This document shows positions 4,787-49,548 of a DNA stretch of 64,000 nucleotides, one piece after another. The position numbers were made by a program, and so were the translations under genes. Under the pieces are notes generated by a model. That model was not told the origin of the DNA and did not search any database. It was given only the letters and a program-made list of their open reading frames with translations. Origin of the DNA: a virus; IMG/VR virus record IMGVR_UViG_3300017917_002466, positions 62,001 to 126,000 of that record; one strand, given 5' to 3'. Within the stretch, counting starts at the first letter, position 1, and each line of letters opens with the position of its first letter.

Positions 4787-5506
4787 ATGAGTATTATTTA
4801 CAAAATAACTAATTTAATTAACGGAAAGATTTACATTGGTCAACATTATACATCAGCAGATGATGGTTATTTGGGTTCTGGTAAATGGATTAAAAGAGCC
4901 ATTAAAAAGTACGGTAAAGAAAACTTCATACGTGAAACAATTGAGTTTTGTACTTCTGCTAATGTAGACGAAAAAGAAGTTTACTGGGTTAATAAGTTGG
5001 GTGCTACTAATCCTAAAGTTGGATATAATATTGATAAAGGCGGAACTGGTCGTTCACCAGGCTATAAACATTCAAAAGAAACCAAAGAAAAACTCAGACA
5101 AATTAATCTCCAAAGAGAAATAAAACCAGAATGGATAGAAAAATTTAAAAAAGTTAGAAAAGGATATAAACACAAAGAAAAAACTAAAAATAAAATATCT
5201 ATTAAACACAAAGGAATTAAACATTCAGAAGAAACTAAGAAATTATTGAGTTTAGTTTTTAAAGGTTTAACTAAAAAGAAATGGACTAAAAAACGAAAAG
5301 AACAAAGAATTAAAGAAACTATAGAAAACAATAAGTCAAAATCAAAATTTTCATACATTTTATCAAATAATGAAGACTTTTGGCAGTTAAATAAAAAACA
5401 AAGATTTATTATCAAAAGACAATTTCAACGTAAAAATACTGACATAATTGTTTATAAAGGTATAACTATTGAAAGGCATCTTAAAAATGAAAACTTTTCA
5501 AATTGA
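4787..5506 (+). CDS. GIY-YIG homing endonuclease, Seg-like
   Basis: Free-standing homing endonuclease of 239 aa. The N-terminal GIY-YIG nuclease domain carries KIYIGQHYTSADDG near residues 13-26; catalytic Arg and Glu lie in the next 60 residues. The C-terminal half is lysine-rich with NUMOD-type helix-turn-helix repeats (SKETKEKLRQ, SEETKKLLSL). The ATG follows GGAGG and makes the N-terminus collinear with the two other GIY-YIG genes that share this leader. It is inserted between gp32 and the primase, and its last 20 bases overlap the primase start. It probably targets homologous phage genomes lacking the insertion. Confidence 0.9.
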   Translation: MSIIYKITNLINGKIYIGQHYTSADDGYLGSGKWIKRAIKKYGKENFIRETIEFCTSANVDEKEVYWVNKLGATNPKVGYNIDKGGTGRSPGYKHSKETKEKLRQINLQREIKPEWIEKFKKVRKGYKHKEKTKNKISIKHKGIKHSEETKKLLSLVFKGLTKKKWTKKRKEQRIKETIENNKSKSKFSYILSNNEDFWQLNKKQRFIIKRQFQRKNTDIIVYKGITIERHLKNENFSN

Positions 5507-25394: not shown

Positions 25395-25468
25395 GCCCCC
25401 AAAGCATTAAGGTGATGCACTTGGCTCTTAACCAAGAGAAGAAGGTTCAATACCTTTTGGGGGTACCA
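25395..25468 (+). tRNA. tRNA-Lys(CTT)
   Basis: Acceptor GCCCCCA/TGGGGGT, anticodon stem CTTGG/CCAAG with loop CTCTTAA. CCA encoded. Confidence 0.9.
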
Positions 25469-25476
25469 AATTTTTT

Positions 25477-25562
25477 GGCGCGGATGGTAAGTGGTTGAAA
25501 TCAAACGGCTGTAACCCGTTCGCCTCACGGCTATGTAGGTTAAAATCCTACCCGCGTCACCA
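25477..25562 (+). tRNA. tRNA-Tyr(GTA)
   Basis: Acceptor GGCGCGG/CCGCGTC, anticodon stem AACGG/CCGTT with loop CTGTAAC, long variable arm as expected for bacterial Tyr. CCA encoded. Confidence 0.92.
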
Positions 25563-25570
25563 AATTATAT

Positions 25571-25644
25571 AGGCTATTGGTGTAATAGAAACACATTTCT
25601 CTCCAAAAGAAAAGACAAGGGAGCATAACCTTTATAGCCTGCCA
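25571..25644 (+). tRNA. tRNA-Trp(CCA)
   Basis: Acceptor AGGCTAT/ATAGCCT, G73, anticodon stem TTTCT/AGAAA with loop CTCCAAA, CCA encoded. Confidence 0.85.
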
Positions 25645-25651
25645 ATTTTTT

Positions 25652-25726
25652 GCTTCCAAGGTGTTAAGGTTGCATTTCCGTCTTTTAAGCGGTAGGGTCT
25701 TGGTTCAAGTCCAAGTGGAAGCACCA
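25652..25726 (+). tRNA. tRNA-Lys(TTT)
   Basis: Acceptor GCTTCCA/TGGAAGC, loop CTTTTAA, T arm TTGGTTCAAGTCCAA. CCA encoded. The anticodon stem has one mismatch. Confidence 0.85.
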
Positions 25727-25733
25727 AGTTTGT

Positions 25734-25810
25734 GGAACTGTAGCATAATTGGCTAGTGCACCACATTGTCAATGTGGGTTATGCGGGTTCAAATCCCGTC
25801 GGTTCCGCCA
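25734..25810 (+). tRNA. tRNA-Asp(GTC)
   Basis: Acceptor GGAACTG/CGGTTCC, G73, anticodon stem CCACA/TGTGG with loop TTGTCAA. CCA encoded. Confidence 0.92.
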
Positions 25811-25818
25811 TAAGTTAC

Positions 25819-25902
25819 ACCCTCGTCGCCTAGTGGTAATGGCACCAGACTTTTAATCTGACGAGCGCAAGCTCTTCACAGGTTCAAATCCTGTCGGGGG
25901 TA
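25819..25902 (+). tRNA. tRNA with TTT anticodon and a long variable arm
   Basis: Acceptor ACCCTCG/CGGGGGT, loop CTTTTAA (anticodon TTT, Lys), but the variable arm is long with its own stem (GAGC-GCAA-GCTC), as in Leu/Ser/Tyr tRNAs. The 3' end reads ACTA, not ACCA. Amino-acid identity is uncertain. Confidence 0.75.
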
Positions 25903-25914
25903 CTAAAAAGTTAT

Positions 25915-26001
25915 TCCAGAGTATGCAAACTGACAGGGCGGCTTGACTGTTAATCAAGTGTGGGAAACCATCTGTAGGTTTAAATCCTACCTCTGGAGCC
26001 A
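25915..26001 (+). tRNA. tRNA-Asn(GTT) with a long variable arm
   Basis: Acceptor TCCAGAG/CTCTGGA, G73, anticodon stem CTTGA/TCAAG with loop CTGTTAA; variable arm with TGG-GAAA-CCA. Class II shape is unusual for Asn. CCA encoded. Confidence 0.82.
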
Positions 26002-26036
26002 AATATTAACATTTACGGAATAATAAAAAGATATAA

Positions 26037-26112
26037 GGGTCTGTAGCTACAATGATAGAGCGCGAGCCCGTTAAGCTCGGAGATGTCAGTTTAACTCTGA
26101 CCGGACCCTCCA
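26037..26112 (+). tRNA. tRNA-Asn(GTT), second copy
   Basis: Acceptor GGGTCTG/CGGACCC, anticodon stem CGAGC/GCTCG with loop CCGTTAA. Position 33 is C rather than T, which may impair decoding. CCA encoded. Confidence 0.75.
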
Positions 26113-26118
26113 AATCAA

Positions 26119-26193
26119 GCAGTGTAGGCAGATCGGCTATGCGTCACTCTTCCAAAGTGAATCTGGTGAGTTCAACTCTCGCACACTGCACCA
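26119..26193 (+). tRNA. tRNA-Gly(TCC)
   Basis: Acceptor GCAGTGT/ACACTGC, anticodon stem TCACT/AGTGA with loop CTTCCAA. CCA encoded. Confidence 0.92.
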
Positions 26194-26200
26194 AAATTTC

Positions 26201-26274
26201 GGGGGTTTCTTCTAGTGGAAAGAAAACTGTCTCTGAAGCAGATAACGGTGGTTCAATTCCATCAACCCTCGCCA
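26201..26274 (+). tRNA. tRNA-Gln(CTG)
   Basis: Acceptor GGGGGTT/AACCCTC, G73, loop CTCTGAA, T arm TGGTTCAATTCCA. CCA encoded. Confidence 0.83.
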
Positions 26275-26280
26275 AAAAGT

Positions 26281-26460
26281 TTTTAGAAGAAAGCTGGGAA
26301 ACAGAGGTTCAAATCCTCTACTGAAGTTGATTTATAGAAGTATGCTGAATTTACTGGCAGGTAAATATAAGCAGAAAATATAAATCCTTTACAAATCAAA
26401 GCCTGCCAGCCGAGATAAGTAAAGTTCAGTTCATCTAGTGGGAGAATACCTGGCGTATTA
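26281..26460 (+). other. tRNA fragments and a hairpin between tRNA-Gln and tRNA-His
   Basis: No complete gene. An isolated T arm (AGAGGTTCAAATCCTCT) lies near 26305-26321 and an isolated D-arm-like piece (CATCTAGTGGGAGAATACC) near 26433-26451. Between them CTGGCAGG pairs with CCTGCCAG across a 45-nt A-rich loop. These look like remains of deleted tRNA genes. Confidence 0.5.
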
Positions 26461-26461
26461 T

Positions 26462-26536
26462 GGTGGTATTGGTGTAGTAGAAGCATCTGATCCTGTGAAG
26501 ATCAAGGGTTCGGAGCATATCCGAAATATCACCCCA
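26462..26536 (+). tRNA. tRNA-His(GTG)
   Basis: Acceptor GTGGTAT/ATATCAC with an encoded extra G-1 facing C73, the His hallmark. Anticodon stem TGATC/GATCA with loop CTGTGAA. CCA encoded. Confidence 0.92.
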
Positions 26537-26544
26537 AAATTTAT

Positions 26545-26633
26545 TAGGAAGTAGGCCCGTAATTGGTAGCGGTCTTGTTCTGGAAACAAGTGGCAATATG
26601 CTCCTGGGAGTTCGAGTCTCCCCTTCCTAACCA
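26545..26633 (+). tRNA. tRNA-Ser(GGA), probable
   Basis: Acceptor TAGGAAG/CTTCCTA, long variable arm, T arm GGGAGTTCGAGTCTCCC. Strict pairing of CTTGT/ACAAG puts TGG at the anticodon with C33; shifting one base gives T33 and GGA, which fits the class II arm. CCA encoded. Confidence 0.7.
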
Positions 26634-26641
26634 AGAATTAT

Positions 26642-26716
26642 GCCGCCGTAGCCAAGTAGAAGGTGATGCCTCTGCAAAAGGTAATCTTTGGGGCGCAACT
26701 CCCCACGGTGGCTCCA
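26642..26716 (+). tRNA. tRNA-Cys(GCA)
   Basis: Acceptor GCCGCCG/CGGTGGC, anticodon stem TGCCT/AGGTA with loop CTGCAAA. CCA encoded. Confidence 0.9.
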
Positions 26717-26756
26717 AATTATTTTCACCAATCTGTGATTTTTTATCATCAAAAGA

Positions 26757-26793
26757 TATAAATACCTCTGATGGGTAAACCAAAAGAGGATTT
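26757..26793 (+). promoter_or_regulatory. late promoter and ribosome-site hairpin for the HNH gene
   Basis: TATAAATA at 26757-26764, directly followed by CCTCT (26765-26769), which pairs with AGAGG (26785-26789), the Shine-Dalgarno sequence. The hairpin would mask translation. Confidence 0.7.
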
Positions 26794-27423
26794 ATGGACT
26801 TAGAAAATAAAAGATACCAATATCTAAAAGACTGGAGAAAAAGAACTAAGCAAAGAATGGTTGATGCTTTTGATGGAAAATGTGGAATTTGTGGATATAA
26901 TAAATGTAAAGAAGCATTAGAATTTCATCATATTGATCCAACAAAAAAAGATTTTACTATTTCAAAAAACAAATTTAACAATTGGGAAAAATTAGTTAAA
27001 GAATTAAAAAAATGTATCTGTATTTGTTCAAATTGTCATAAAGAAATTCATAATGAAATAATTAAAATTCCAATTGATGTTAAAAAATTTAATGAAAATT
27101 ATAATGAATATAGAGTAGAAAAAGAAATTAATTATATTGAATGTCCAGTTTGTAAAAAATTAATGGAAGATACACGTAATTATTGTTCGATGGATTGTTT
27201 TAATAAGATTAGAGAAAAAGTAGATTGGAAAATATTTGATTTAAATAAAATGATTTTAACATCATCTATTTTAGAAATTTCTAAAATAGTTGGAGTTTCA
27301 AATACATCTATTCAAAAAAGACTAAAAAAATTAAATCTTCCTTTTAAAAGAAAAGATATTTTAAAATATAAAATGGATGCTGGCGTGGCTGGTAGTGACG
27401 GTTTGTCTGATAAACAAATGTAG
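26794..27423 (+). CDS. HNH homing endonuclease inside the tRNA array
   Basis: 209 aa. HNH core CGICGYNKCKEALEFHHIDP ... CICICSNCHKEIHNEI at the N-terminal half; a further CPVCKK ... YCSMDCF zinc site; a C-terminal helix-turn-helix (SILEISKIVGVSNTSIQKRLKKLNLP). The reading frame runs 49 bases into the tRNA-Ile gene, so the last 16 residues are encoded by tRNA sequence. This overlap suggests the element inserted next to, and may recognise, tRNA-Ile. Confidence 0.87.
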   Translation: MDLENKRYQYLKDWRKRTKQRMVDAFDGKCGICGYNKCKEALEFHHIDPTKKDFTISKNKFNNWEKLVKELKKCICICSNCHKEIHNEIIKIPIDVKKFNENYNEYRVEKEINYIECPVCKKLMEDTRNYCSMDCFNKIREKVDWKIFDLNKMILTSSILEISKIVGVSNTSIQKRLKKLNLPFKRKDILKYKMDAGVAGSDGLSDKQM

Positions 27424-27451
27424 CGAAGTTCGATTCTTCGGGCATCCACCA
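27375..27451 (+). tRNA. tRNA-Ile(GAT)
   Basis: Acceptor GGATGCT/GGCATCC, anticodon stem TTTGT/ACAAA with loop CTGATAA. CCA encoded. Its 5' two thirds overlap the end of the HNH reading frame. Confidence 0.9.
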
Positions 27452-27457
27452 AATTGT

Positions 27458-27540
27458 ACCTTGAGCGTAAAGTCGTACATGGCAGAACTCCGGACTCTGC
27501 TGTTATGTAAAACGTGGTGAAAATCCCATCCAAGGTGCCA
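27458..27540 (+). tRNA. tRNA-Arg(CCG), probable
   Basis: Acceptor ACCTTGA with CCAAGGT (one mismatch), G73, loop CTCCGGA (anticodon CCG) on a stem with one mismatch; the variable region is long. CCA encoded. Confidence 0.6.
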
Positions 27541-27546
27541 AATTAT

Positions 27547-27622
27547 GCCGCTTGAGCAAGTGTGGTCATTGCATCAGTTTGAAGAACTGACTAACACGGT
27601 TCGATTCCGTGGGGCGGCACCA
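27547..27622 (+). tRNA. tRNA-Phe(GAA)
   Basis: Acceptor GCCGCTT/GGGCGGC, anticodon stem TCAGT/ACTGA with loop TTGAAGA. CCA encoded. Confidence 0.92.
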
Positions 27623-27628
27623 AGTTTT

Positions 27629-27636
27629 TATAAATA
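27629..27636 (+). promoter_or_regulatory. late promoter TATAAATA
   Basis: Octamer 94 bases before the ATG of the 27730 gene; an AAGGAG ribosome site with a TTG-started 8-codon frame (MKILKPGT) whose stop overlaps that ATG lies between. Confidence 0.6.
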
Positions 27637-27729
27637 CAAGTAGAAGTTTGGTCCTCAAAAGAAAGATTCAATTTAACCAAAAAGTTACTGAACAAGGAGA
27701 AATCTATTGAAAATACTTAAACCAGGAAC

Positions 27730-27948
27730 ATGAATACAAAAAACCGTTTTGATTTTTTGTTATGTTATTTGGGTAGACACAACTGGAAGAACGAAAGACC
27801 TAAACCTTTATTAACAATGTTCGGTTTAATTATTACATTTGAGAAATATAGATATTGTCAAAGGTGCTTAAAAAGACAAATCTGGGAAGACATTTACGGT
27901 GATTTAAATAAGATTGGAGAATGGATAGACTGTAAAAAGAATTCATAG
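27730..27948 (+). CDS. small Cys-containing protein, DUF1660-like
   Basis: 72 aa. The pattern LCYLGRHNW ... YRYCQRCLKRQIW resembles small phage/prophage proteins with one CxxC pair and conserved LGRH-W. The start may be translationally coupled to the 8-codon frame just upstream. The stop overlaps the next tRNA by two bases. Confidence 0.65.
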   Translation: MNTKNRFDFLLCYLGRHNWKNERPKPLLTMFGLIITFEKYRYCQRCLKRQIWEDIYGDLNKIGEWIDCKKNS

Positions 27949-28020
27949 TGGTGTAGAATAATGTAGTTCCCCTCGTTTTCAGCGAGAAATGTGCGGGTTC
28001 AAGTCTCGTCGCCACTACCA
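27947..28020 (+). tRNA. tRNA-Glu(TTC)
   Basis: Acceptor AGTGGTG/CGCCACT, anticodon stem CTCG/CGAG with loop TTTTCAG. CCA encoded. Confidence 0.82.
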
Positions 28021-28027
28021 AATTTAT

Positions 28028-28103
28028 GCTCCCATCGTCTAACGGTTTAGGATGCCAGATTTTCAATCTGAGAACGTGAGTTCAACTCTCACTGGGAGTA
28101 CCA
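28028..28103 (+). tRNA. tRNA-Glu(TTC), second copy
   Basis: Acceptor GCTCCCA/TGGGAGT, stem CAGA/TCTG with loop TTTTCAA. CCA encoded. Confidence 0.87.
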
Positions 28104-28109
28104 AGTTAT

Positions 28110-28185
28110 GCCGTTCAAGCAATTGAAGTCAATGCGCTTGCCTGAAGAGCAAGATAATCCGGGGCAGTACCGGGGGGCGGCACCA
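28110..28185 (+). tRNA. tRNA-Phe(GAA), second copy
   Basis: Acceptor GCCGTTC/GGGCGGC with two G-T pairs, anticodon stem CTTGC/GCAAG with loop CTGAAGA. CCA encoded. Confidence 0.85.
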
Positions 28186-28186
28186 C

Positions 28187-28221
28187 GGAAAATGCGGGGT
28201 CGAATCCCGTCACCACTACCA
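28187..28221 (+). pseudogene. 3' half of a tRNA
   Basis: T arm GCGGGGTCGAATCCCGT followed by CACCACTACCA, matching the 3' end of the tRNA-Glu at 27947-28020. No 5' half precedes it; a duplication remnant. Confidence 0.65.
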
Positions 28222-28242
28222 AATTACCGAAGGACATAATTT

Positions 28243-28250
28243 TATAAATA
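28243..28250 (+). promoter_or_regulatory. late promoter TATAAATA
   Basis: Octamer only 5 bases before the ATG at 28256. If transcription starts 5-6 bases downstream of the octamer, as in T4, the mRNA would be leaderless. Confidence 0.6.
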
Positions 28251-28255
28251 TAAGT

Positions 28256-28582
28256 ATGAAATGCTTATTTTTACATAAAGGATGTCCATATAATTATAAT
28301 CAACATAACTTACAACATTCTTATGGTTGGATAAGTCCAGATGGTATTTTTTATGGTTGTGAAAAATATGAGCATATAAAAAGATCAGAGTTCTTACTAC
28401 CTAATTATCCAAATTCGGAAGCTAAATTAGAATATGACAGATGGATAAAAGTTTCAGAAGAATTAAATGATAAAATAATATGTTTTGGAAAAGTTACACA
28501 AGCACAAATAGATATATTATCAGATTGGTGTATTGTGCATTGCTTTAAATTTCCACACGAATATATCGATAATTTTCTATAA
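28256..28582 (+). CDS. protein of unknown function
   Basis: 108 aa, Cys- and Trp-containing (CLFLHKGCPYNYN ... HSYGWISPDGIFYGCEKYEH). The G-WI-PDG-FY-C--Y-H pattern is seen in small phage proteins of unknown role. No Shine-Dalgarno sequence; see the adjacent late promoter. Confidence 0.7.
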   Translation: MKCLFLHKGCPYNYNQHNLQHSYGWISPDGIFYGCEKYEHIKRSEFLLPNYPNSEAKLEYDRWIKVSEELNDKIICFGKVTQAQIDILSDWCIVHCFKFPHEYIDNFL

Positions 28583-28635
28583 CATAGTTCATAAATACCA
28601 TTGATGCTATTTACGACATCAACGGGGGAAATAGA

Positions 28636-28815
28636 TTGGAAATTATTTTAGTTTTATCCATAGCAGTATTTTTAGCAAGTGGACTAAGTTTTTATTTTGG
28701 AATGTTGTTTGAAGGATTGAGATGGTCTGAAAAAACAAATATTAACGGAAAAATAATATCTTTTATGGGTAATCAATATAAAGTAACAAAAATACTTTTA
28801 AAACCAAAAGAATAG
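28636..28815 (+). CDS. 59-aa single-pass membrane protein
   Basis: TTG start with GGGGGAAA upstream. Residues 3-25 (ILVLSIAVFLASGLSFYFGMLF) form one membrane helix; the rest is short and basic. A CATAAATA late-promoter variant lies at 28590. Function unknown. Confidence 0.5.
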   Translation: MEIILVLSIAVFLASGLSFYFGMLFEGLRWSEKTNINGKIISFMGNQYKVTKILLKPKE

Positions 28816-28836
28816 GACGATTAAAAATTTTAAAAT

Positions 28837-28912
28837 CGGGATGTGGCGCAGCGAGTAGCGCGCTCGCTTTGGGAGCGAGTGGTCGCCGGGGCGGAGCCGG
28901 CCATCCCGACCA
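28837..28912 (+). tRNA. tRNA-Pro(TGG)
   Basis: Acceptor CGGGATG/CATCCCG, anticodon stem CTCGC/GCGAG with loop TTTGGGA. CCA encoded. Far more GC-rich than its neighbours, suggesting recent capture from a bacterial genome. Confidence 0.95.
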
Positions 28913-28929
28913 AGTTTCAAAAATTCTAA

Positions 28930-28985
28930 AGGATGAGTTCAGCAATCAAAAATTCTTATTAAAAAAGAAAACAAGTTCATCCTGT
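28930..28985 (+). ncRNA. R-element copy R1 (in the tRNA array)
   Basis: Closing stem AGGATGA (28930-28936) with TCATCCT (28977-28983), followed by GTG. Conserved loop block GTTCAGCAATCAAAA just inside the stem, then a short A-rich interior. No coding potential. Confidence 0.7.
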
Positions 28986-28993
28986 GAATCAAT

Positions 28994-29080
28994 GGAAGGT
29001 TAGAGCGTAATTAGTAGCGTGTCGGTCTTGAAAACCGAACCCGAAAGGGCCTGGGGATGCGATTTCCTCACCTTCCGCCA
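28994..29080 (+). tRNA. tRNA-Ser(TGA)
   Basis: Acceptor GGAAGGT/ACCTTCC, G73, anticodon stem TCGGT/ACCGA with loop CTTGAAA, long variable arm. CCA encoded. Confidence 0.93.
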
Positions 29081-29086
29081 ATTTTT

Positions 29087-29161
29087 GGGGGATTAGTTTA
29101 TTCAGGAAAACATAAGCCTTGCAAGCTTAAAAGCCCGGAGCGTAGCCGGGATTCTCCACCA
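29087..29161 (+). tRNA. tRNA-Ala(TGC)
   Basis: Acceptor GGGGGAT/ATTCTCC, anticodon stem TAAGC/GCTTA with loop CTTGCAA, T arm CCCGG/CCGGG. CCA encoded. Confidence 0.88.
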
Positions 29162-29167
29162 AATTAT

Positions 29168-29242
29168 ACCAAGTGGCAGGTCAGCATCTGAGGACGTCTC
29201 ATAAGCGTTCTGAATAGGGGTCAGCACCCTAACTTGGTACCA
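29168..29242 (+). tRNA. tRNA-Met(CAT)
   Basis: Acceptor ACCAAGT/ACTTGGT, anticodon stem GACGT/GCGTT with loop CTCATAA, T arm AGGG/CCCT. CCA encoded and followed at once by an AAAGGAG ribosome site. Confidence 0.87.
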
Positions 29243-29256
29243 AAGGAGTAACTTAT

Positions 29257-29564
29257 ATGCCAAAAGCCACAAAGGAAAATCAACCTTAACAGTTGTAGGT
29301 GAAACTGAAGATGGTAAGAAAGTTGTCAGAGGATTGTTTTTAATAAGCACTTCAATAACTGGATTACCTTTAGAAGATTGCTTAGAAATTTTGAAAAAGA
29401 ATAATCTTGTGGTAGATTGGATAGACTTTATAGAAGATGCTATCAAGTATAAATGGAAGATGGAAAGAACATTGATAAAGATAGAAACATCAGTTGAAGA
29501 AGTTTACGGAAAAGAATATTGTCAAGAAGTAATGAAAAGAATTAAAGGATGGGTTCAGCAATAA
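29257..29564 (+). pseudogene. small gene with an early frameshift
   Basis: AAAGGAG at 29242-29248 points to the ATG at 29257, whose frame stops after 10 codons (MPKATKENQP). The coding-like sequence GKSTLTVVGETEDGKKVVRG... continues in another frame to a stop at 29562, with no in-frame start except a poorly placed TTG at 29334. So the gene is broken early, or the sequence has an indel there. Its last codons contain the 5' part of R-element R2. Function unknown. Confidence 0.55.
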
Positions 29565-29665
29565 AAATCCATTACAAGGCGCGTGTCGGTGGTTCGATTC
29601 CATCCGCTCCCACATTACTGGAGTGTAGCTCAGTTGGTAGAGCAGCAAAAAAAAGTCCATCCTGA
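29546..29665 (+). ncRNA. R-element copy R2 enclosing a permuted tRNA-Val
   Basis: Closing stem AGGATGG (29546-29552) with CCATCCT (29657-29663); loop block GGTTCAGCAATAAAAA. The interior holds a tRNA in reversed half order: a 3' half (29571-29614: anticodon loop ATTACAA, T arm GGTGGTTCGATTCCATC, acceptor CGCTCC) and then a 5' half (29620-29646: GGAGTG acceptor, D arm GCTCAGTTGGTAGAGC). GGAGTG pairs with CGCTCC. Read circularly the body is tRNA-Val(TAC)-like. Confidence 0.7.
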
Positions 29666-29678
29666 ATTTATGTAAAAT

Positions 29679-29757
29679 GCCAAGTTCGCATAGCGGTCGA
29701 TTGCGCCTCTCTTGTAAGGAGGAATTACCGGGGGTTCGACTCCCTCACTTGGCTCCA
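29679..29757 (+). tRNA. tRNA-Thr(TGT)
   Basis: Acceptor GCCAAGT/ACTTGGC, anticodon stem CCTCT/GGAGG with loop CTTGTAA. CCA encoded. Confidence 0.92.
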
Positions 29758-29771
29758 GACTATAAAACAGA

Positions 29772-29832
29772 AGACTGGTTCCAGCAAACCAAAACTATTT
29801 GCTTGTTAAGCAAACAAAGTAATCCAGTCTGA
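29772..29832 (+). ncRNA. R-element copy R8
   Basis: Closing stem AGACTGG (29772-29778) with CCAGTCT (29824-29830); loop block TTCCAGCAAACCAAAA (one extra C). The interior is a hairpin TTTGC-TTGTTAA-GCAAA, which has the 5-bp stem and 7-nt loop of an anticodon arm with GTT at the anticodon position. Confidence 0.65.
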
Positions 29833-29860
29833 GTTTAAATTTTTTAAAAAATAATAAATC

Positions 29861-29950
29861 GGTAAAATGGGCGAGTGGTTTATGCCAGCACACTGCTAAC
29901 GTGCCGGGCCCTAAAAAGCTCCACAGGTTCGAATCCTGTTTTTACCGCCA
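29861..29950 (+). tRNA. tRNA-Ser(GCT)
   Basis: Acceptor GGTAAAA/TTTTACC, G73, loop CTGCTAA, long variable arm. CCA encoded. Confidence 0.9.
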
Positions 29951-29957
29951 AATAAAC

Positions 29958-30034
29958 GCACCCATAGTTCAGATAGCAAGAATACGTTCTTGGTAAGAAT
30001 GAGGCGGTTGGTGCAAGTCCAACTGGGTGCTCCA
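29958..30034 (+). tRNA. tRNA-Thr(GGT)
   Basis: Acceptor GCACCCA/TGGGTGC, anticodon stem CGTTC/GAATG with loop TTGGTAA. CCA encoded. Confidence 0.92.
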
Positions 30035-30037
30035 TAT

Positions 30038-30111
30038 GCCACTATAGCTTAATGTAAAGCCTTCGCCTCGTAAGCGAAAAGATTTCATTTCAAATATGAA
30101 TAGTGGCTCCA
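30038..30111 (+). tRNA. tRNA-Thr(CGT)
   Basis: Acceptor GCCACTA/TAGTGGC, anticodon stem TTCGC/GCGAA with loop CTCGTAA, T arm TTCAT/ATGAA. CCA encoded. Confidence 0.92.
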
Positions 30112-30120
30112 AAGATAAAT

Positions 30121-30199
30121 ACCTGTGTATCTCACCAGTCTTCTAAACTGTGTAAGAGTAATTGGATTAATGTGGGTTCAAGTCCCATCACAGGTTCCA
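30121..30199 (+). tRNA. tRNA-Arg(TCT) lacking a normal D arm
   Basis: Acceptor ACCTGTG/CACAGGT and T arm TGTGGGTTCAAGTCCCATC are sound. The anticodon arm CCAGT-CTTCTAA-ACTGT begins only 7 bases after the acceptor, leaving no D arm, while about 22 bases separate it from the T arm. Total length is normal. Either a rearranged or defective tRNA. Confidence 0.6.
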
Positions 30200-30227
30200 C
30201 CTGACAATCAAGGAGAAATATCATATA

Positions 30228-30431
30228 ATGAAACGTAGAGATTTTCTAGGATTTACAATAGCATCCTTACTCTTAGTAGGATGTGCAGCTAGCCCAAATA
30301 TTATATATTATGTTGAGTCAGAGAAAGAAGTTGAATCGATGAGAAAACGATTAGAAGAAAGGGGTGAAAAAGTAGTTGATGTGAAGTTTGATAAAATAAG
30401 TAATTTGTATATCATTAAAATTAAAAAATAA
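30228..30431 (+). CDS. small lipoprotein
   Basis: 67 aa. Signal peptide MKRRDFLGFTIASLLLVGC with lipobox LVGC (Cys19 lipidated), leaving a 48-residue periplasmic or surface part with a short beta-like end. In phages, small lipoproteins of this kind often change the host surface (for example superinfection exclusion); here that is inference. AAGGAG upstream. Sits within the tRNA array. Confidence 0.7.
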   Translation: MKRRDFLGFTIASLLLVGCAASPNIIYYVESEKEVESMRKRLEERGEKVVDVKFDKISNLYIIKIKK

Positions 30432-30445
30432 TTTAAGAAAGAAAA

Positions 30446-30922
30446 ATGAATAAGCAAAATACTAATAAACTTATAAAAAAACATAGATATATGTTTGATG
30501 AATTATTCAGAAGCCGATTAATCAAAAAAGAACAAGATAGATTGGCAGATGAATTTTCAGAAGCTAAAATTGAAGACGATGAAATAAAAATTGCTCAAAT
30601 AATGGAAGAACAAAGACAAGTTGGTTCTTATTATCCAATAGCCTTTGGTTTTGAATGTGGTGATGGATGGTATAAACTTCTTGATGATTTAATGACAGAA
30701 ATTGAAAAAATAGATACAGAAAAGAAGGTTGAAGTTCATCAAGTAAAAGAAAAATCTGGTGGATTAAGATTTTATGCCGAGAATACTTCAAATGAAATAG
30801 AAGATATTATCAGCCGATATATGGATAGATCATATCAAACTTGTGAAATTTGTGGGCAACCAGGAAAAACAAACAAAAAAGGATGGTTGAGAACGGCTTG
30901 TAAGGAACACGAAAGAAATTAA
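30446..30922 (+). CDS. conserved phage protein of unknown function
   Basis: 158 aa. Pattern FGFECGDGWYKLLDDL ... VHQVKEKSGGLRFY ... CEICGQPGKT ... WLRTACKEH is shared by a family of phage proteins with a C-terminal zinc site. Role unknown. 14 bases after the lipoprotein. Confidence 0.75.
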   Translation: MNKQNTNKLIKKHRYMFDELFRSRLIKKEQDRLADEFSEAKIEDDEIKIAQIMEEQRQVGSYYPIAFGFECGDGWYKLLDDLMTEIEKIDTEKKVEVHQVKEKSGGLRFYAENTSNEIEDIISRYMDRSYQTCEICGQPGKTNKKGWLRTACKEHERN

Positions 30923-30930
30923 GAGATTAA

Positions 30931-31016
30931 GCGGTCGTGGAGGAATGGCAGACTCACAAGGCTAAGAACCTTGTGGAAGAAATTCCGTGAGGGTTCAACT
31001 CCCTCCGACCGCACCA
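30931..31016 (+). tRNA. tRNA-Leu(AAG)
   Basis: Acceptor GCGGTCG/CGACCGC, anticodon stem CAAGG/CCTTG with loop CTAAGAA, long variable arm. CCA encoded. A34 in a Leu tRNA is uncommon and would need conversion to inosine for wide decoding. Confidence 0.9.
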
Positions 31017-31105
31017 AATAAAAATATCAAAGAAGCTTTGGAAAAATTAAAACTTACATATAATGGTGGAAATTTCGTAAGAGCAAAGAAAATATTAAAT
31101 GATAT

Positions 31106-31182
31106 GCTGGGGTAGCCCAATTGGTAGAGGCGATTTGTTTAGAGCGAATATGTTGTGGGTTCGAATCCCATCTCCAGTACCA
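31106..31182 (+). tRNA. tRNA with TAG anticodon (Leu CTA) but a short variable arm
   Basis: Acceptor GCTGGGG/CTCCAGT, anticodon stem ATTTG/CGAAT with loop TTTAGAG (anticodon TAG), variable region only 5 nt (ATGTT). Leu tRNAs normally have a long arm. CCA encoded. Confidence 0.78.
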
Positions 31183-31190
31183 AGATTTAA

Positions 31191-31265
31191 GCAGTGTTGG
31201 CCTAATAGTTGGGCGCTAGCCTTCCAAGCTGGTTCAAGTGGGAGCGTTACCCACACACTGCTCCA
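31191..31265 (+). tRNA. tRNA-Gly(TCC), second copy
   Basis: Acceptor GCAGTGT/ACACTGC, anticodon stem CTAGC/GCTGG with loop CTTCCAA, T arm GTGGG/CCCAC. CCA encoded. Confidence 0.9.
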
Positions 31266-31272
31266 AGTTTAT

Positions 31273-31366
31273 GCTAAGATGGTGGAATGGAAAGACACGG
31301 TAGCTTCAGAAGCTACTGAGAACCTTGCTAGTTCTCGTGTAGGTTCGAATCCTGCTCTTAGCACCA
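31273..31366 (+). tRNA. tRNA-Leu(CAG)
   Basis: Acceptor GCTAAGA/TCTTAGC, anticodon stem GTAGC/GCTAC with loop TTCAGAA, long variable arm. CCA encoded. Confidence 0.93.
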
Positions 31367-31374
31367 GAAATTAA

Positions 31375-31449
31375 GCTCTTGTAGTGTAACGTATAGCACG
31401 AGTCGCGTCGAACGATTTAGTGAGGGTTAGATTCCTTCCAAGAGCGCCA
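31375..31449 (+). tRNA. tRNA-Arg(TCG)
   Basis: Acceptor GCTCTTG/CAAGAGC, stem AGTCG/CGATT with loop CGTCGAA. Position 33 is G rather than T. CCA encoded. Confidence 0.75.
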
Positions 31450-31453
31450 ATAC

Positions 31454-31525
31454 ACTTCCTTAGTGAAAAGGAAATAATATTACCCTACGAAGGTAAAGTT
31501 GATGGTTCAAATCCATCAGGAAGTA
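31454..31525 (+). tRNA. tRNA-Arg(ACG)
   Basis: Acceptor ACTTCCT/AGGAAGT, anticodon stem TTACC/GGTAA with loop CTACGAA. No CCA encoded (ends AGTATA). A34 is normal for this bacterial isoacceptor. Confidence 0.83.
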
Positions 31526-31529
31526 TATT

Positions 31530-31667
31530 TTTATAATGTAACTCTCTATGACAATTAGCACAAACAAGAATACATTTATCTAGTTCTTTTTGAAAAATAT
31601 CCCAAATTCTATATTTGGCCTTTGAAAGAGAGAATTCTTTTTTATTCTGGTCTAAAAGGTGTACCAA
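31530..31667 (-). pseudogene. remnant of an HNH endonuclease
   Basis: Minus-strand frame reading EFSLSKAKYRIWDIFQKELDKCILVCANCHRELHYKN, the C-terminal end of an HNH domain (CILVCANCHRELH). The rest of the gene is missing and the frame runs on into tRNA antisense sequence. An old endonuclease insertion that was deleted. Confidence 0.6.
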
Positions 31668-31684
31668 AAAATTATGGAGAAATT

Positions 31685-32074
31685 ATGAATAAATTTAAAA
31701 GTGTAGTTATTAGATCAGCAGAAAATAATATTCACAATAAACAACTAAGAAAAAGAGTTGAATATAGTCTTTCCGCTGACTTTGAATATATACCCAGAGA
31801 AATTGTTGTTTTGATAATTGTCAATGGTAAATATTATTTGAAAAGTAAAAAGGGTGATTATGTAGATGATAAAACTAAAGTTAATGTAGATGCTTTGATT
31901 TATAATAATATTTACTATGCTTATATTTTGGAAAAGCAAAAAAATAAATCAATTACTTTTAAAAAAAAAGAAGACGTTAAAGACAAGAATAAGTATAAAA
32001 ATAAAAATGCCATCGCATTGATTCCTAAAAAATGGATTGAAGATGGAACTATTGTTCTTGATAAAAAAGTATGA
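31685..32074 (+). CDS. protein of unknown function
   Basis: 129 aa from the ATG at 31685, which has TGGAGAA upstream; a longer frame to 31622 lacks a ribosome site and overlaps the HNH remnant. Lysine-rich C-terminal half. No family recognised. Confidence 0.65.
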   Translation: MNKFKSVVIRSAENNIHNKQLRKRVEYSLSADFEYIPREIVVLIIVNGKYYLKSKKGDYVDDKTKVNVDALIYNNIYYAYILEKQKNKSITFKKKEDVKDKNKYKNKNAIALIPKKWIEDGTIVLDKKV

Positions 32075-32075
32075 T

Positions 32076-32149
32076 GCTCCTATCAGCTAACGGTAGGCTT
32101 CCAAACCTTCAATCTGAGAATTAAGTTTCAACTTCCCATAGGAGTACCA
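32076..32149 (+). pseudogene. degenerate tRNA-Glu
   Basis: The acceptor GCTCCTA/TAGGAGT is intact and the sequence parallels the tRNA-Glu at 28028, but the anticodon stem (CCAAA against TCTGA) and T stem no longer pair well. CCA encoded. Probably inactive. Confidence 0.55.
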
Positions 32150-32156
32150 AGTTTAT

Positions 32157-32233
32157 GCGCCTGTAATTCAGTAGAATAGAATAATGGTTTTCTAAACCAT
32201 AAGTCACAGGTTTGAATCCTGTCAGGCGTACCA
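32157..32233 (+). tRNA. tRNA-Arg(TCT), second copy
   Basis: Acceptor GCGCCTG/CAGGCGT, anticodon stem ATGGT/ACCAT with loop TTTCTAA. CCA encoded. Well formed, unlike the copy at 30121. Confidence 0.9.
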
Positions 32234-32241
32234 AATAACAT

Positions 32242-32316
32242 ACAGCTATAGTACAATGGATAGTGCACTAGTTTCCTAAACCTGAAATTCTGGTTCGATT
32301 CCAGATAGCTGTACCA
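32242..32316 (+). tRNA. tRNA-Arg(CCT)
   Basis: Acceptor ACAGCTA/TAGCTGT, loop TTCCTAA (anticodon CCT); two mismatches in the anticodon stem. CCA encoded. Confidence 0.75.
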
Positions 32317-32337
32317 AATTTTATCTCTTTTTATCAT

Positions 32338-32422
32338 AGGAGCCAAGGCAACTGGTTGTGGCCGCCAGTCTTATAAGCTGGGAAACTAAACGAGGTGGGT
32401 TCAATTCCCACGGCTCCTACCA
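32338..32422 (+). tRNA. tRNA-Ile(TAT) with an extended variable region
   Basis: Acceptor AGGAGCC/GGCTCCT, anticodon stem CCAGT/GCTGG with loop CTTATAA; 13-nt variable region. CCA encoded. Confidence 0.85.
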
Positions 32423-32426
32423 AAAA

Positions 32427-32434
32427 TATAAATA
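32427..32434 (+). promoter_or_regulatory. late promoter TATAAATA
   Basis: Octamer 26 bases before the ATG at 32460, with GGAGGGTGA between them. Confidence 0.65.
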
Positions 32435-32459
32435 TTTTCAAATATACAATGGAGGGTGA

Positions 32460-32669
32460 ATGGCACACATCTGCGAATTTTTTCCTTGTCATAAACTAAT
32501 TGATGGGTTTAATTGTAAAAATTGTTATTGCCCACTTTATGACCATACCGATTGTCAACATTTTGGTGGGGAACCTAAATTTCTTTACTCAAAAGGGGAG
32601 AAAATAAAAGACTGTTCAGATTGTATTCTCCCTCATAAGCCAGACTTTAAAATACAAACAAGATATTGA
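32460..32669 (+). CDS. cysteine-rich small domain protein
   Basis: 69 aa with ten Cys. The pattern CEFFPCHK ... [12 protein letters not shown] ... [11 protein letters not shown] matches the Cys-rich small domain family (FFPCH, NC-CYCPLY, K-CS-C--PH). Function of the family is unknown; it probably binds metal. Late promoter and strong Shine-Dalgarno sequence upstream. Confidence 0.82.
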
Positions 32670-32694
32670 CATTTTACAAGGATGATATTATATT
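32666..32694 (+). promoter_or_regulatory. sigma70-type promoter inside the tRNA array
   Basis: TTGACA 32666-32671, 17-bp spacer, TATATT 32689-32694; the next tRNA starts 9 bases later. Confidence 0.8.
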
Positions 32695-32702
32695 AATAAT
32701 AT

Positions 32703-32778
32703 GCCTGTTTCTTCTAGTGGTATAGGAAGTTTGCCTTACAAGCAGAAAACGATGGTTCGATTCCATCAATAGGCACCA
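32703..32778 (+). tRNA. tRNA-Val(TAC)
   Basis: Acceptor GCCTGTT/AATAGGC, anticodon stem TTTGC/GCAGA with loop CTTACAA. CCA encoded. An intact Val(TAC), so the permuted one at 29546 is not the only source. Confidence 0.9.
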
Positions 32779-32785
32779 AATATTT

Positions 32786-32856
32786 ACTCGTTTAGTTCAA
32801 CGGAAGAATATCTGTTTGACGTACAGAAGACAATAGTTCAACTCTATTAACGAGTA
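32786..32856 (+). tRNA. tRNA-Val(GAC)
   Basis: Acceptor ACTCGTT/AACGAGT, anticodon stem TCTGT/ACAGA with loop TTGACGT. No CCA encoded. Confidence 0.85.
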
Positions 32857-32917
32857 TAAAAACAAATTATGATTCGTTAAATTATGGTAATGGACAAAAA
32901 ACTAAACATAAAAATAA

Positions 32918-32991
32918 GCGGAAGTAGTTCAACGGTAGAATGCGACTTTGCCAAGGTTGAGACAGGAGTTCAACTCTCCTTTTCCGCACCA
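32918..32991 (+). tRNA. tRNA-Gly(GCC)
   Basis: Acceptor GCGGAAG/TTTCCGC, anticodon stem CGACT/GGTTG with loop TTGCCAA. CCA encoded. Confidence 0.88.
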
Positions 32992-32997
32992 AATTAC

Positions 32998-33074
32998 TGG
33001 GGTGTTGCCTAATGGATCAAGGCGCGGGTCTTTGAAGCCTGTCCGTGAAGGTTCAATTCCTTCCACCCCAACCA
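32998..33074 (+). tRNA. tRNA-Gln(TTG)
   Basis: Acceptor TGGGGTG/CACCCCA, anticodon stem CGGGT/GCCTG with loop CTTTGAA. CCA encoded. Confidence 0.92.
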
Positions 33075-33130
33075 GATAAACATAAATATTAATATAGGAT
33101 TTGATTTTGAACATTTTAAAGGAGGTTTGT

Positions 33131-33433
33131 ATGAAGATGGTTCCGTTGTACAATAAGTTGATTGTTGAACTTCTTCCCGAAGAGTCCGAAAAGAGATCAG
33201 CAACAGGTTTAATTCTTCCGGGAAAAATTTCTCCGTATTACAGGGGAAAGGTGACTGGTGTTGGTAAAGGTCATTATCAAAATGCTCAAAGAATTCCAAT
33301 GGATGTTAAGGAAGGAGATATTGTAGTCTTCTTAAAGAACTGTGGAATGGGAATTGAGTTTGATAACGGAAATAACCCAACAAAGCTTATTTTGGATGAT
33401 ACAAATATTTACGCAGTAGAGGAAAACGACTAA
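33131..33433 (+). CDS. groES: GroES-like co-chaperonin
   Basis: 100 aa. Cpn10 family: N-terminal VPLYNKLIVELLPEE, mobile-loop region around ATGLILPGK, then GKVTGVGKG and VKEGDIVVFLKNCGMGIE, ending in the final beta strand. T4 encodes a functional analogue (gp31) for folding the capsid protein. The ATG at 33131 has AAAGGAGG upstream. Its position inside the tRNA array is notable. Confidence 0.87.
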   Translation: MKMVPLYNKLIVELLPEESEKRSATGLILPGKISPYYRGKVTGVGKGHYQNAQRIPMDVKEGDIVVFLKNCGMGIEFDNGNNPTKLILDDTNIYAVEEND

Positions 33434-33488
33434 ATTGTCACAGCCAAACTGGGAATTTTAGATCAAAAATAAAAAAATTGTATATAAA

Positions 33489-33573
33489 TGCTCTGGTGGT
33501 GGAATTGGTATACACATCACGCTTAAGACGTGATGCCCGTAAGGGATTGGGGGTTCAACTCCCCCCCAGAGTA
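33489..33573 (+). tRNA. tRNA-Leu(TAA)
   Basis: Acceptor GCTCTGG/CCAGAGT, anticodon stem TCACG/CGTGA with loop CTTAAGA, long variable arm. 3' end reads ACTA. Confidence 0.9.
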
Positions 33574-33583
33574 CTAAATTAAT

Positions 33584-33663
33584 GCTCCGGTAGCCCAACT
33601 TTGGTAGAGGCCGTAAGCTCAAACCTTACGTTAGTGTGGGTCCGAATCCCATCCGGAGTACCA
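33584..33663 (+). tRNA. tRNA-Leu(CAA) with a short variable arm
   Basis: Acceptor GCTCCGG/CCGGAGT, anticodon stem GTAAG/CTTAC with loop CTCAAAC. The body resembles the TAG-anticodon tRNA at 31106, including the short variable region. CCA encoded. Last tRNA of the array. Confidence 0.83.
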
Positions 33664-41135: not shown

Positions 41136-41570
41136 ATGAACTACCTAACAACTCGCTCGCATGATTTACCATCACTTTTTAACGACCTATTTTTCAGAGA
41201 CTTTTTTGGCGATGATTTTTTTAGCCCGCTTCCTGCATTGAAGAAAATTGATTATCCTGTTGACATTTATGAAACGGAAGAAGGCTTGAATCTTGATATT
41301 GCCGCTGTTGGACTTGATAAGCCAGATGTGAAAATAGACATTAAGGATGATGTTCTTACTATTTCACACGCAAAAGAAGCCTCTACTGAAAAAGAAGGGA
41401 AGTATGCCTATCGTGGCATCACCCAGAAATCTTTCAAGTTGGCTTGGCGTATCAATGAGAAGTTTGATTTAACAAAGACCAAAGCTTCTCTTGAAAAGGG
41501 ACTTTTGAAAATCACTATTCCTGTGGCACCTGAAAAGAAAGCCAAAGAAATAGAAGTTCAGATTCAATAA
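41136..41570 (+). CDS. hsp20: Hsp20 small heat-shock protein
   Basis: 144 aa alpha-crystallin-domain chaperone that keeps unfolding proteins soluble. N-terminal DLPSLFNDLFFRDFF; domain core PVDIYETEEGLNLDIAAVGLDKPDVKIDIKDDVLTIS; C-terminal LEKGLLKITIPV plus the K-IEVQIQ tail. AAGGAGG upstream. Similar genes are known in cyanophages. The 5' and 3' flanks can pair with each other over 14 bases. Confidence 0.9.
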   Translation: MNYLTTRSHDLPSLFNDLFFRDFFGDDFFSPLPALKKIDYPVDIYETEEGLNLDIAAVGLDKPDVKIDIKDDVLTISHAKEASTEKEGKYAYRGITQKSFKLAWRINEKFDLTKTKASLEKGLLKITIPVAPEKKAKEIEVQIQ

Positions 41571-41679: not shown

Positions 41680-41815
41680 AGAGTAGGTTCTGCAATCAAA
41701 ATAATACTTAAAGGAAGTCCCAATGTCATAGCCGGGGACACAAAATAATCGGTTGTGGTGGACTTTTATTAATTGAGAAAGTTAGTTCTAAAAGAAATAA
41801 TCTGACTACTCTGGG
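41680..41815 (+). ncRNA. R-element copy R0
   Basis: Closing stem AGAGTAG (41680-41686) with CTACTCT (41806-41812); loop block GTTCTGCAATCAAAA. The interior carries GTCCC...GGGAC and further A/U-rich hairpins. A CTTTGACAAA string precedes it. Non-coding. Confidence 0.7.
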
Positions 41816-41836
41816 AATTACTAAATTATGGCTTAA

Positions 41837-41969
41837 AGGATGGGTTCGGCAAACCAAAATAGCCCGAAAGGGCATCAAGGTAGCCGTCAATAAAAGGCGG
41901 CGGAGAGGAAGTTAAACTTGCAAAGGCTTCCCTCTCTAAAATAAAAAAGAAACCTTTCTAACATCCTGT
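41837..41969 (+). ncRNA. R-element copy R3
   Basis: Closing stem AGGATG (41837-41842) with CATCCT (41962-41967), followed by GT. Loop block GGTTCGGCAAACCAAAA. Interior hairpins GCCC-GAAA-GGGC, GCCG...CGGC and GAGAGG...CCTCTC. Confidence 0.75.
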
Positions 41970-41996
41970 AGCTTATTCTTTGACAAACGCATCTAA

Positions 41997-42134
41997 AGGA
42001 TGAATTCGGCAACCAAATTTGATGCGAAAGCATCACTATAACAGGTTATAAGCTGCGACACCGAAAGGTGACCAGATACTAACCAAGGTTTTTTGGAGAC
42101 TTTTCCCTAAATAAAAATCTTTCAAGCATCCTGT
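41997..42134 (+). ncRNA. R-element copy R4
   Basis: Closing stem AGGATG (41997-42002) with CATCCT (42127-42132), then GTG. Loop block ATTCGGCAACCAAAT. Interior hairpins GATGC-GAAA-GCATC and CACC-GAAA-GGTG. CTTTGACAAA precedes it. Confidence 0.75.
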
Positions 42135-42152
42135 GATGTTTTCAAAAAGACC

Positions 42153-42181
42153 TTGACAAACTTGTGAGAAGATATTATATT
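42153..42181 (+). promoter_or_regulatory. sigma70-type promoter inside the R-element array
   Basis: TTGACA 42153-42158, 17-bp spacer, TATATT 42176-42181. Would transcribe R5-R7 and the Ro-like gene. Confidence 0.83.
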
Positions 42182-42230
42182 AAGAAAGAGGGCAGAAAAT
42201 TTCGGTAAAATGATATATACATATTCGGGA

Positions 42231-42321
42231 AGGATAGATTCAGCAAACTAAAAGGAAAATAGCTCGCAAGAGCTTATTTGGTTCAAATCCAAAAACGTCG
42301 CAAGACGAAAAACTATCCTGT
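42231..42321 (+). ncRNA. R-element copy R5
   Basis: Closing stem AGGATAG (42231-42237) with CTATCCT (42313-42319), then GTG. Loop block ATTCAGCAAACTAAAA. The interior has AGCTC-GCAA-GAGCT, a T-arm-like TTTGGTTCAAATCCAAA and CGTC-GCAA-GACG. Confidence 0.75.
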
Positions 42322-42342
42322 GACCTACAAGATAATAAATGA

Positions 42343-42401
42343 AGGGTGAGTTCAGCAACTCAAAAACAAACAACTCATAATTGTTAAAAAGTTCACCCTG
42401 T
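42343..42401 (+). ncRNA. R-element copy R6
   Basis: Closing stem AGGGTGA (42343-42349) with TCACCCT (42393-42399), then GT. Loop block GTTCAGCAACTCAAAA. Short interior. Confidence 0.75.
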
Positions 42402-42435
42402 TTTTTCTACAGTTCGGATTGAAAGAAAGTTTTGA

Positions 42436-42486
42436 AGGTTGGATTCCGCAATTAAAATCCATAATTAGGAAAAAAGACCAACCTGT
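42436..42486 (+). ncRNA. R-element copy R7
   Basis: Closing stem AGGTTGG (42436-42442) with CCAACCT (42478-42484), then GT. Loop block ATTCCGCAATTAAAA. Shortest copy, 28 bases before the Ro-like start codon. Confidence 0.75.
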
Positions 42487-46205: not shown

Positions 46206-46280
46206 ACGCCTGTAGCAGGGATCGAACCCGCGCAGACAGAAATTTAGAGTTTCCCGCTCTAGCCGCTGAGCTATACAGGC
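46206..46280 (-). tRNA. amber suppressor-type tRNA (anticodon CTA)
   Basis: Minus strand. Acceptor GCCTGTA/TACAGGC, D arm GCTC/GAGC, anticodon stem GGAAA/TTTCT with loop CTCTAAA, so anticodon CTA at positions 34-36, reading UAG. T arm GCGGGTTCGATCCCTGC, G73; no CCA encoded. All arms are intact. The amino acid cannot be read from sequence; G73 would allow Gln. It lies apart from the main array, at the 3' end of the leftward operon. Confidence 0.87.
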
Positions 46281-49535: not shown

Positions 49536-49548
49536 TACCATCCTCCAA

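Follow-up and report, generated by a model that had tools for sequence, protein, structure and literature searches.

A 64,000-nt window of a virus genome (positions 62001-126000 of a 253,664-bp IMG/VR record) carries a tRNA array and, about 12 kb from the element copies in that array, a group of further copies upstream of a gene for a Ro-like protein. The locus raises the question of what kind of RNA this element is, and how it is connected to tRNA genes in one place and to Ro in the other. The initial annotation had pointed out this double linkage for three array copies (R1, R2 and R8), and we found that it recurs in many other phages. Our analysis suggests that R1, R2, R8 and the six copies before the Ro-like gene (E1 to E6) are probably phage-encoded Y-like RNAs that bind the Ro60-fold (DUF2828) protein of the same phage.

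Nine copies of one RNA element in the window

The nine copies and the array that hosts three of them are as follows.

28930-28983 (+), with a G at 28984: R1, minimal; stem AGGATGA/TCATCCT, motif GTTCAGCAA, CCTGTG end
29546-29664 (+): R2, long; stem AGGATGG/CCATCCT, motif GTTCAGCAA; tRNA-Thr 15 nt downstream
29772-29831 (+): R8, minimal; stem AGACTGG/CCAGTCT, motif TTCCAGCAA; between tRNA-Thr and tRNA-Ser
41680-41813 (+): E1, long; stem AGAGTAG/CTACTCT, motif GTTCTGCAA
41837-41968 (+): E2, long; 6-bp stem AGGATG/CATCCT, motif GTTCGGCAA; several internal hairpins, z -4.3
41997-42133 (+): E3, long; 6-bp stem AGGATG/CATCCT, motif ATTCGGCAA; z -3.8
42231-42320 (+): E4; stem AGGATAG/CTATCCT, motif ATTCAGCAA; three internal hairpins
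42343-42400 (+): E5, minimal; stem AGGGTGA/TCACCCT, motif GTTCAGCAA, CCCTGT end
42436-42485 (+): E6, minimal; stem AGGTTGG/CCAACCT, motif ATTCCGCAA; the Ro-like gene starts 28 bp on
25395-33663 (+): tRNA array, 35 tRNAs by ARAGORN; hosts R1, R2 and R8

R1, R2 and R8 were found where the initial annotation had placed them, with the paired stems that it described, and their plan is common to E1 to E6 (41680-42485); the nine sequences were confirmed to be copies of one RNA family. Their common core comprises a 7-bp closing stem, variable in sequence with its pairing kept, followed on the 5' side by NUNCAGCAA, an A-rich 3' side, and a G(U) end. The CAGCAA-type block lies three bases past the 5' stem strand in the window elements, a G follows the 3' strand, and the loop is either minimal (50-60 nt for the whole element) or bears additional modules. 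In R1, R2 and R8, GTTCAGCAA or TTCCAGCAA stands immediately past the 5' strand, and the nearest tRNA gene is 11 to 15 nt away; R1 lies between tRNA-Pro (18 nt away) and tRNA-Ser (11 nt away). The middle hairpin of E4 resembles a T-arm (TTTGG TTCAAAT CCAAA, 42277-42293).

A descriptor consisting of the closing stem and the motif (threshold 23.5) detected seven of the nine elements on the plus strand of the window and nothing on the minus strand, with 0 to 0.2 matches per shuffled window. R2 and E1 were among those detected, and E2 and E3, which have 6-bp stems, were recognized by direct reading. We also built a covariance model from 18 short elements of other phages, with no window sequence included. 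This phage-only model matched R1 at 44.8 bits (E 1e-8), R8 at 38.3 bits (4.8e-7), E5 at 36.3, E6 at 28.3 and E4 at 24.6 bits, with no other match above 12.3 bits in the window or above 17.8 bits elsewhere in the 253-kb record; the loops of R2, E1, E2 and E3 exceed what the model accommodates. In the 18 elements used to build it, 100% of stem cells were paired and all seven pairs covaried, with 48 compensatory cells as compared with 11.3 in shuffles, and sliding the partner strand by one base reduced pairing to 35%. The closing stem of R1, R8, E5 and E6 was also supported by folding programs; the loops folded modestly, and the short copies folded 1.8-2.6 standard deviations better than shuffles. 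An RNA that closes on itself, with a stem that covaries throughout, is the independent element that the initial annotation had envisaged.

At the curated cut-off, no Rfam family matched any of the nine window copies. We saw no intrinsic terminator downstream of the elements, and one good promoter-like site was found at 42153-42181, before E4. The element had also been described as mobile or repeatedly duplicated; it has been duplicated repeatedly and the copies have diverged, but nothing in the sequence supports transposition, as no transposase, target-site duplication, or terminal repeat beyond the RNA's own stem was seen. Because such signs are missing and nothing beyond the core is common to the copies, they can be accounted for by tRNA arrays that duplicate or recombine internally, and we rejected the idea of a mobile element.

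Association with DUF2828 proteins across phages

Two genes near the E copies bear on the identity of the RNAs.

42514-43986 (+): Ro60-fold protein gene; Pfam DUF2828 (1.6e-30), DUF7788 vWA; PHROG 850 'RNA-binding protein'
48222-49541 (-): RtcB RNA ligase gene, 4 kb from the Ro-like gene

The Ro-like protein gave no match to Pfam TROVE at E 0.001, and its sequence profile reached Ro60 at E 0.09 only. Its AlphaFold2 model (pLDDT 84.7, pTM 0.84) was compared with the PDB by Foldseek, which returned Ro60 at 2.8e-7, the top matches all being Ro60 or Rsr. Structural alignment to Ro60 covered 417 residues, nearly the full length, with Z 20.6 at 4.0 Å, and the next-best structural matches were a Thermus phage Ro60 and Deinococcus Rsr. 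According to this predicted model, the product of 42514-43986 has the HEAT-ring and vWA fold of Ro60, and it is the presumed binding partner of the element RNAs. Bacteria have operons that combine rsr, Y RNA and rtcBA genes (PMC7790460). RtcB is a partner of Ro and Y RNAs in bacterial RNA-repair operons.

The descriptor was applied to two sets of loci that were picked by their DUF2828 protein alone. In 17 loci of named phages, it found 32 elements on the strand of the gene and none on the opposite strand (1.05 expected), and in 80 IMG/VR loci it found 83 and none, respectively (1.0 expected), such that the 97 loci together hold 115 same-strand and no opposite-strand elements against an expectation of about 2. 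At least one element was present in 50 of the 80 IMG/VR loci. The hosts of element-bearing named phages include Listeria, Mycobacterium, Aeromonas, Klebsiella, Escherichia, Campylobacter, Bacillus, Enterococcus and Synechococcus. When viral contigs were picked by the RNA alone, 23 of 28 encoded DUF2828, as compared with none of 25 control contigs, which were picked by an unrelated 16-mer and were on average shorter than the RNA-picked ones. The surroundings of the RNA-picked copies contained 202 further same-strand elements and 2 opposite-strand ones. Furthermore, the exact pattern AGGATGC-NTNCAGCAA...GCATCCTG, which represents one stem variant, occurred in at least 120 viral stretches, and the same pattern with its motif letters permuted occurred in none. 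The RNA family is widespread in phages; in 257 billion bases of cellular genomes, the exact pattern was found in five stretches, with a DUF2828 gene in one of the assemblies as well. In an assembly labelled Spirochaetia (L285), a DUF2828 gene with one in-frame TAA has an element on each side; the TAA possibly reflects a phage contig with another genetic code, or a sequencing error.

Previously, Y RNAs were proposed for Listeria phage CKA15 and, citing Chen et al. 2014, for mycobacteriophages (PMC12282133). In the portions of that report that deal with these RNAs, very high transcription is reported near the Rsr-like gene of CKA15, and the Y RNA identity is a guess for highly transcribed regions. 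As with the elements described here, the proposed RNAs are non-coding and adjoin an Rsr-like gene and tRNA genes; unlike for our elements, a common core, a minimal form and a family that spans phages are absent from those portions. Our Listeria (L006) and Mycobacterium (L007) loci have three elements each. In L006, a match to ROOL RNA (5427-5978; 89.8 bits, cut-off 99.1) lies between the tRNA array and the Y-like RNAs, and this RNA may account for the high transcription near the Rsr-like gene of CKA15. Because the ROOL match lies in that stretch, we did not accept the CKA15 expression peaks as the Y-like RNAs.

Phage Ro proteins are already annotated in some genomes. In the open literature, a scope outside which some central bacterial Y RNA work falls, we found no description of the common core, the minimal forms, the tRNA-array placement or the likeness to dictyostelid Class I RNAs that is considered below. 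Thus, phage Y RNAs as such have been proposed before, and what is apparently new is the common core, the 50-60-nt minimal forms, the dispersal through tRNA arrays, and the strong match to Class I RNAs. Hundreds of phage records contain Ro60-type proteins, most of which have no RNA partner assigned to them. The family offers a candidate for that partner, with a compact, searchable core that is found, in phages infecting many bacterial hosts, next to the protein gene and in the gaps between tRNA genes. The family takes the 'phage Y RNA' from a single-genome guess to a covariation-backed family with built-in controls, namely short and long forms, and motif and stem mutants.

The tRNA-like module and the comparison with YrlA

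The loop of R2 contains a tRNA-like module, an addition to the initial annotation, which did not mention it. Its parts are given here.

29588-29643 (+): whole module; T-arm, acceptor strands and D-arm
29588-29604 (+): T-arm, loop TTCGATT
29605-29610 (+): acceptor 3' strand CGCTCC, then CACA
29620-29625 (+): acceptor 5' strand GGAGTG
29628-29643 (+): D-arm, GCTCAGTTGGTAGAGC

The acceptor strands pair at 6 of 6 bases, one G-U among them, and, as far as its sequence can be read, the R2 loop is a circularly permuted tRNA without the anticodon arm. The bacterial Y RNA YrlA, the partner of the Ro60 ortholog Rsr, has the layout of a tRNA that is open at its anticodon and joined up at its acceptor end. 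The Rfam model of YrlA (RF02553) matched R2 over 29581-29646 at 33.8 bits (E 3.5e-6 in a small search), which is below the gathering cut-off of 69, and the match covers model positions 24-84, the tRNA-like middle alone. At E 0.001, the YrlA model also scores in E. coli, in B. subtilis and in 82 of 296 genomes of one phylum, and we rejected it as a detector because it scores in many genomes that lack a Y RNA context. The cellular matches of 30-40 bits probably arise from adjacent tRNA genes, in which the 3' half of one gene is followed by the 5' half of another, so that YrlA annotations within tRNA clusters need a check for acceptor complementarity. Because YrlA scores also arise from tRNA neighbours, complementary acceptor strands within one closing stem are the better evidence. 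We therefore searched for the order T-arm, acceptor strand, complementary acceptor strand and D-arm inside one closing stem. A T-arm was present in 67 of 151 distinct long elements, most of which also had a D-arm and acceptor strands that pair over 6 to 7 bases, and R2 is among the long elements with the full module. By this arrangement of parts, the module-bearing long members mimic a tRNA with the anticodon end open and the acceptor end closed, as in YrlA.

The phage elements resemble YrlA in that the RNA gene adjoins the gene of a Ro-fold protein and RtcB is encoded close by, and in having a closing stem and a loop module, which in R2 and many relatives is a permuted tRNA lacking the anticodon arm. 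They differ from YrlA in that the phage partner belongs to the DUF2828 branch and not to Pfam TROVE, in that many phage copies are 50-60 nt long without a tRNA module, and in that a genome has up to nine elements, with dispersal through tRNA arrays; in addition, the ends of R2 do not match RF02553.

Several observations weigh against the view that the elements are Y-like RNAs. The minimal copies R1, R8, E5 and E6 have no tRNA-like part, and the YrlA model matches ordinary neighbouring tRNA genes at 30-40 bits, which makes the score of R2 weak when taken alone. An element above threshold was missing, within the stretch covered, from 30 of the 80 IMG/VR DUF2828 loci and from 6 of the 17 named-phage loci, but for one of the latter (L009) the record has elements about 10 kb off in a tRNA array. 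Finally, cellular TROVE-Ro loci of eight genomes, GC-rich and covered by flanks of about 1.5 kb, gave no convincing element. Because of this last result, the RNA core may be confined to the branch with DUF2828 proteins.

If the elements are indeed Y-like RNAs, the Ro-like ring protein would bind the stem and the motif. The array RNAs would share a transcript with the tRNAs and be released when the neighbouring tRNAs are cut to maturity, and the RNAs before the Ro gene would be made together with that gene. Bound RNA might cap or gate the Ro ring, and the loop module, as a tRNA mimic, might recruit or decoy tRNA-handling enzymes. Ro, its RNAs and RtcB would then constitute a phage RNA-surveillance and repair set, which could protect the phage tRNA pool from host tRNA-cutting defences. 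This protective role is the least certain step and we propose it tentatively, with more doubt than confidence; it suggests a way in which a phage that has a large tRNA array may maintain functional tRNAs in the face of host anticodon nucleases.

Class I RNAs and other explanations of the element

Class I RNAs, reported as unique to dictyostelids, are about 60 nt long, start with AAG and end with CUGU, and have a short covarying stem with an 11-nt motif beside its 5' strand (PMC7919456). Our comparison with them rests on the Rfam model RF01414, which contains Dictyostelium only, and on the published description. RF01414 matched R1 at 24.7 bits and protein-picked phage records at up to 36.1 bits (E 5.3e-6), as compared with at most 18.5 bits in control contigs, and those high-scoring matches that were mapped coincide with descriptor elements. 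Control genomes also match this model at E 1, and we used only scores of 25-36 bits that coincided with descriptor elements. The gathering cut-off of 41.5 was reached by none, the best relative scoring 36.5 bits. Outside the window, the same virus record has an RF01414 match of 24.3 bits at 138233-138286 (-), which the phage-only model did not list.

The two groups are alike in several respects. R1 and E5 read AAGG...CCUGU, fitting the start and end of Class I RNAs, and the dictyostelid RNAs likewise have a short covarying closing stem, a UUACAGCAA-type block beside the 5' strand, a variable loop and many paralogues. The 11-nt motif of Class I RNAs is marked by T3, C6, C9, A10 and A11. In the phage motif, C6, C9, A10 and A11 are at 99-100%, largely by construction of the search, and T3 is at 39% with T4 at 91%, such that the strong T lies one place beyond the dictyostelid T3. 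The exact 11-mer CCUUACAGCAA occurs in an Aeromonas phage copy (L008, 2840-2895). Unlike Class I RNAs, the phage elements are found in phages and not in amoebae, are linked to a Ro-fold gene and to tRNA arrays, and commonly take long forms with tRNA modules.

This likeness might reflect common descent, a common kind of binding partner, or convergence. The phage elements could share an RNA class with Class I RNAs, a class defined as a whole by a Ro-fold (DUF2828-type) partner. Such a shared class, which we hold to be a real possibility though somewhat short of an even one, would extend the Y-like RNA explanation and not oppose it, with the minimal element as the ancestral form and the tRNA module as an add-on. 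In its favour are the excess of RF01414 scores over controls, the common AAG start, covarying 6-7-bp stem, CUUACAGCAA-type block and CUGU end, and the median length near 60 nt, variable loop and many copies in both groups (PMC7919456). Against it, every RF01414 score is below the gathering cut-off, the T of the motif is displaced, the proven Class I partner is the RRM protein Rnp1A, and a short motif with a stem could converge. With slightly less confidence still, we suggest that phage Ro-associated Y-like RNAs and Class I RNAs may be one minimal Ro-fold ligand that has spread between phages and eukaryotes, in which case the 'dictyostelid-specific' RNAs would work via a Ro60-like protein. If this link is true, a class of amoeba RNAs that is 20 years old, has a developmental phenotype and lacks a clear mechanism would gain a testable function.

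In relatives, most element matches far from the Ro gene sit within tRNA arrays, where they often take up the space that separates one tRNA gene from the next, as in L103, where an element at 1460-1521 lies between tRNA-Pro (1378-1453) and tRNA-Ile (1531-1604). Since distal elements mostly lie in tRNA arrays, the arrangement between tRNAs is general and extends beyond this window. Among the distal and RNA-picked loci, 187 of 346 elements have a same-strand tRNA within 30 nt. That over half of the array elements have a tRNA gene so close would fit a role as signals for the processing or stability of polycistronic tRNA transcripts, the elements being stem-loop spacers that guide RNase cuts and have no Ro partner. 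We consider this quite improbable, because the same elements lie directly upstream or downstream of DUF2828 genes, kilobases from any tRNA, their presence tracks DUF2828, and the long copies carry structured modules that a spacer does not need. A tRNA-processing signal, the alternative source of shared sequence that the initial annotation had raised, thus fails to explain the element.

The elements might instead be cis-regulatory leaders through which the Ro gene regulates itself, later spread into the tRNA array. E6 ends 28 bp ahead of the Ro start and many loci have an element just upstream of the gene, but many others have elements only downstream of it (L066-L068, L074) or in arrays kilobases away, and up to nine copies occur per genome, which leaves little room for this explanation. 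Chance inverted repeats in AT-rich intergenic DNA, which would suit the folding margin of only 1.8-2.6 standard deviations in the short copies, were refuted by the strand asymmetry (115 vs 0, with about 2 expected from shuffles), the covariation of all pairs and the absence of matches to the permuted motif.

Other features were noted in the window and in the relatives. Apart from the main array, the window has a gene for a tRNA of the tRNA-Pyl type (46207-46280, -), which has the anticodon CTA and apparently reads amber codons. The tRNA array of Escherichia phage EC6 (L014) includes weak tmRNA and permuted-tmRNA matches (5923-6112 and 5808-5991), and in Klebsiella phage KP2025 (L012) a published 432-base tRNA-Arg annotation (2875-3306) overlaps the start of the DUF2828 gene and is probably an annotation error. 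A GroES-like gene (33101-33433, +) and an Hsp20-like gene (41136-41570, +) lie on either side of the stretch that separates the tRNA array of the window from its Ro locus, and a gene for the large subunit of ribonucleotide reductase at 10726-14229 (+) contains an intein with a LAGLIDADG domain.
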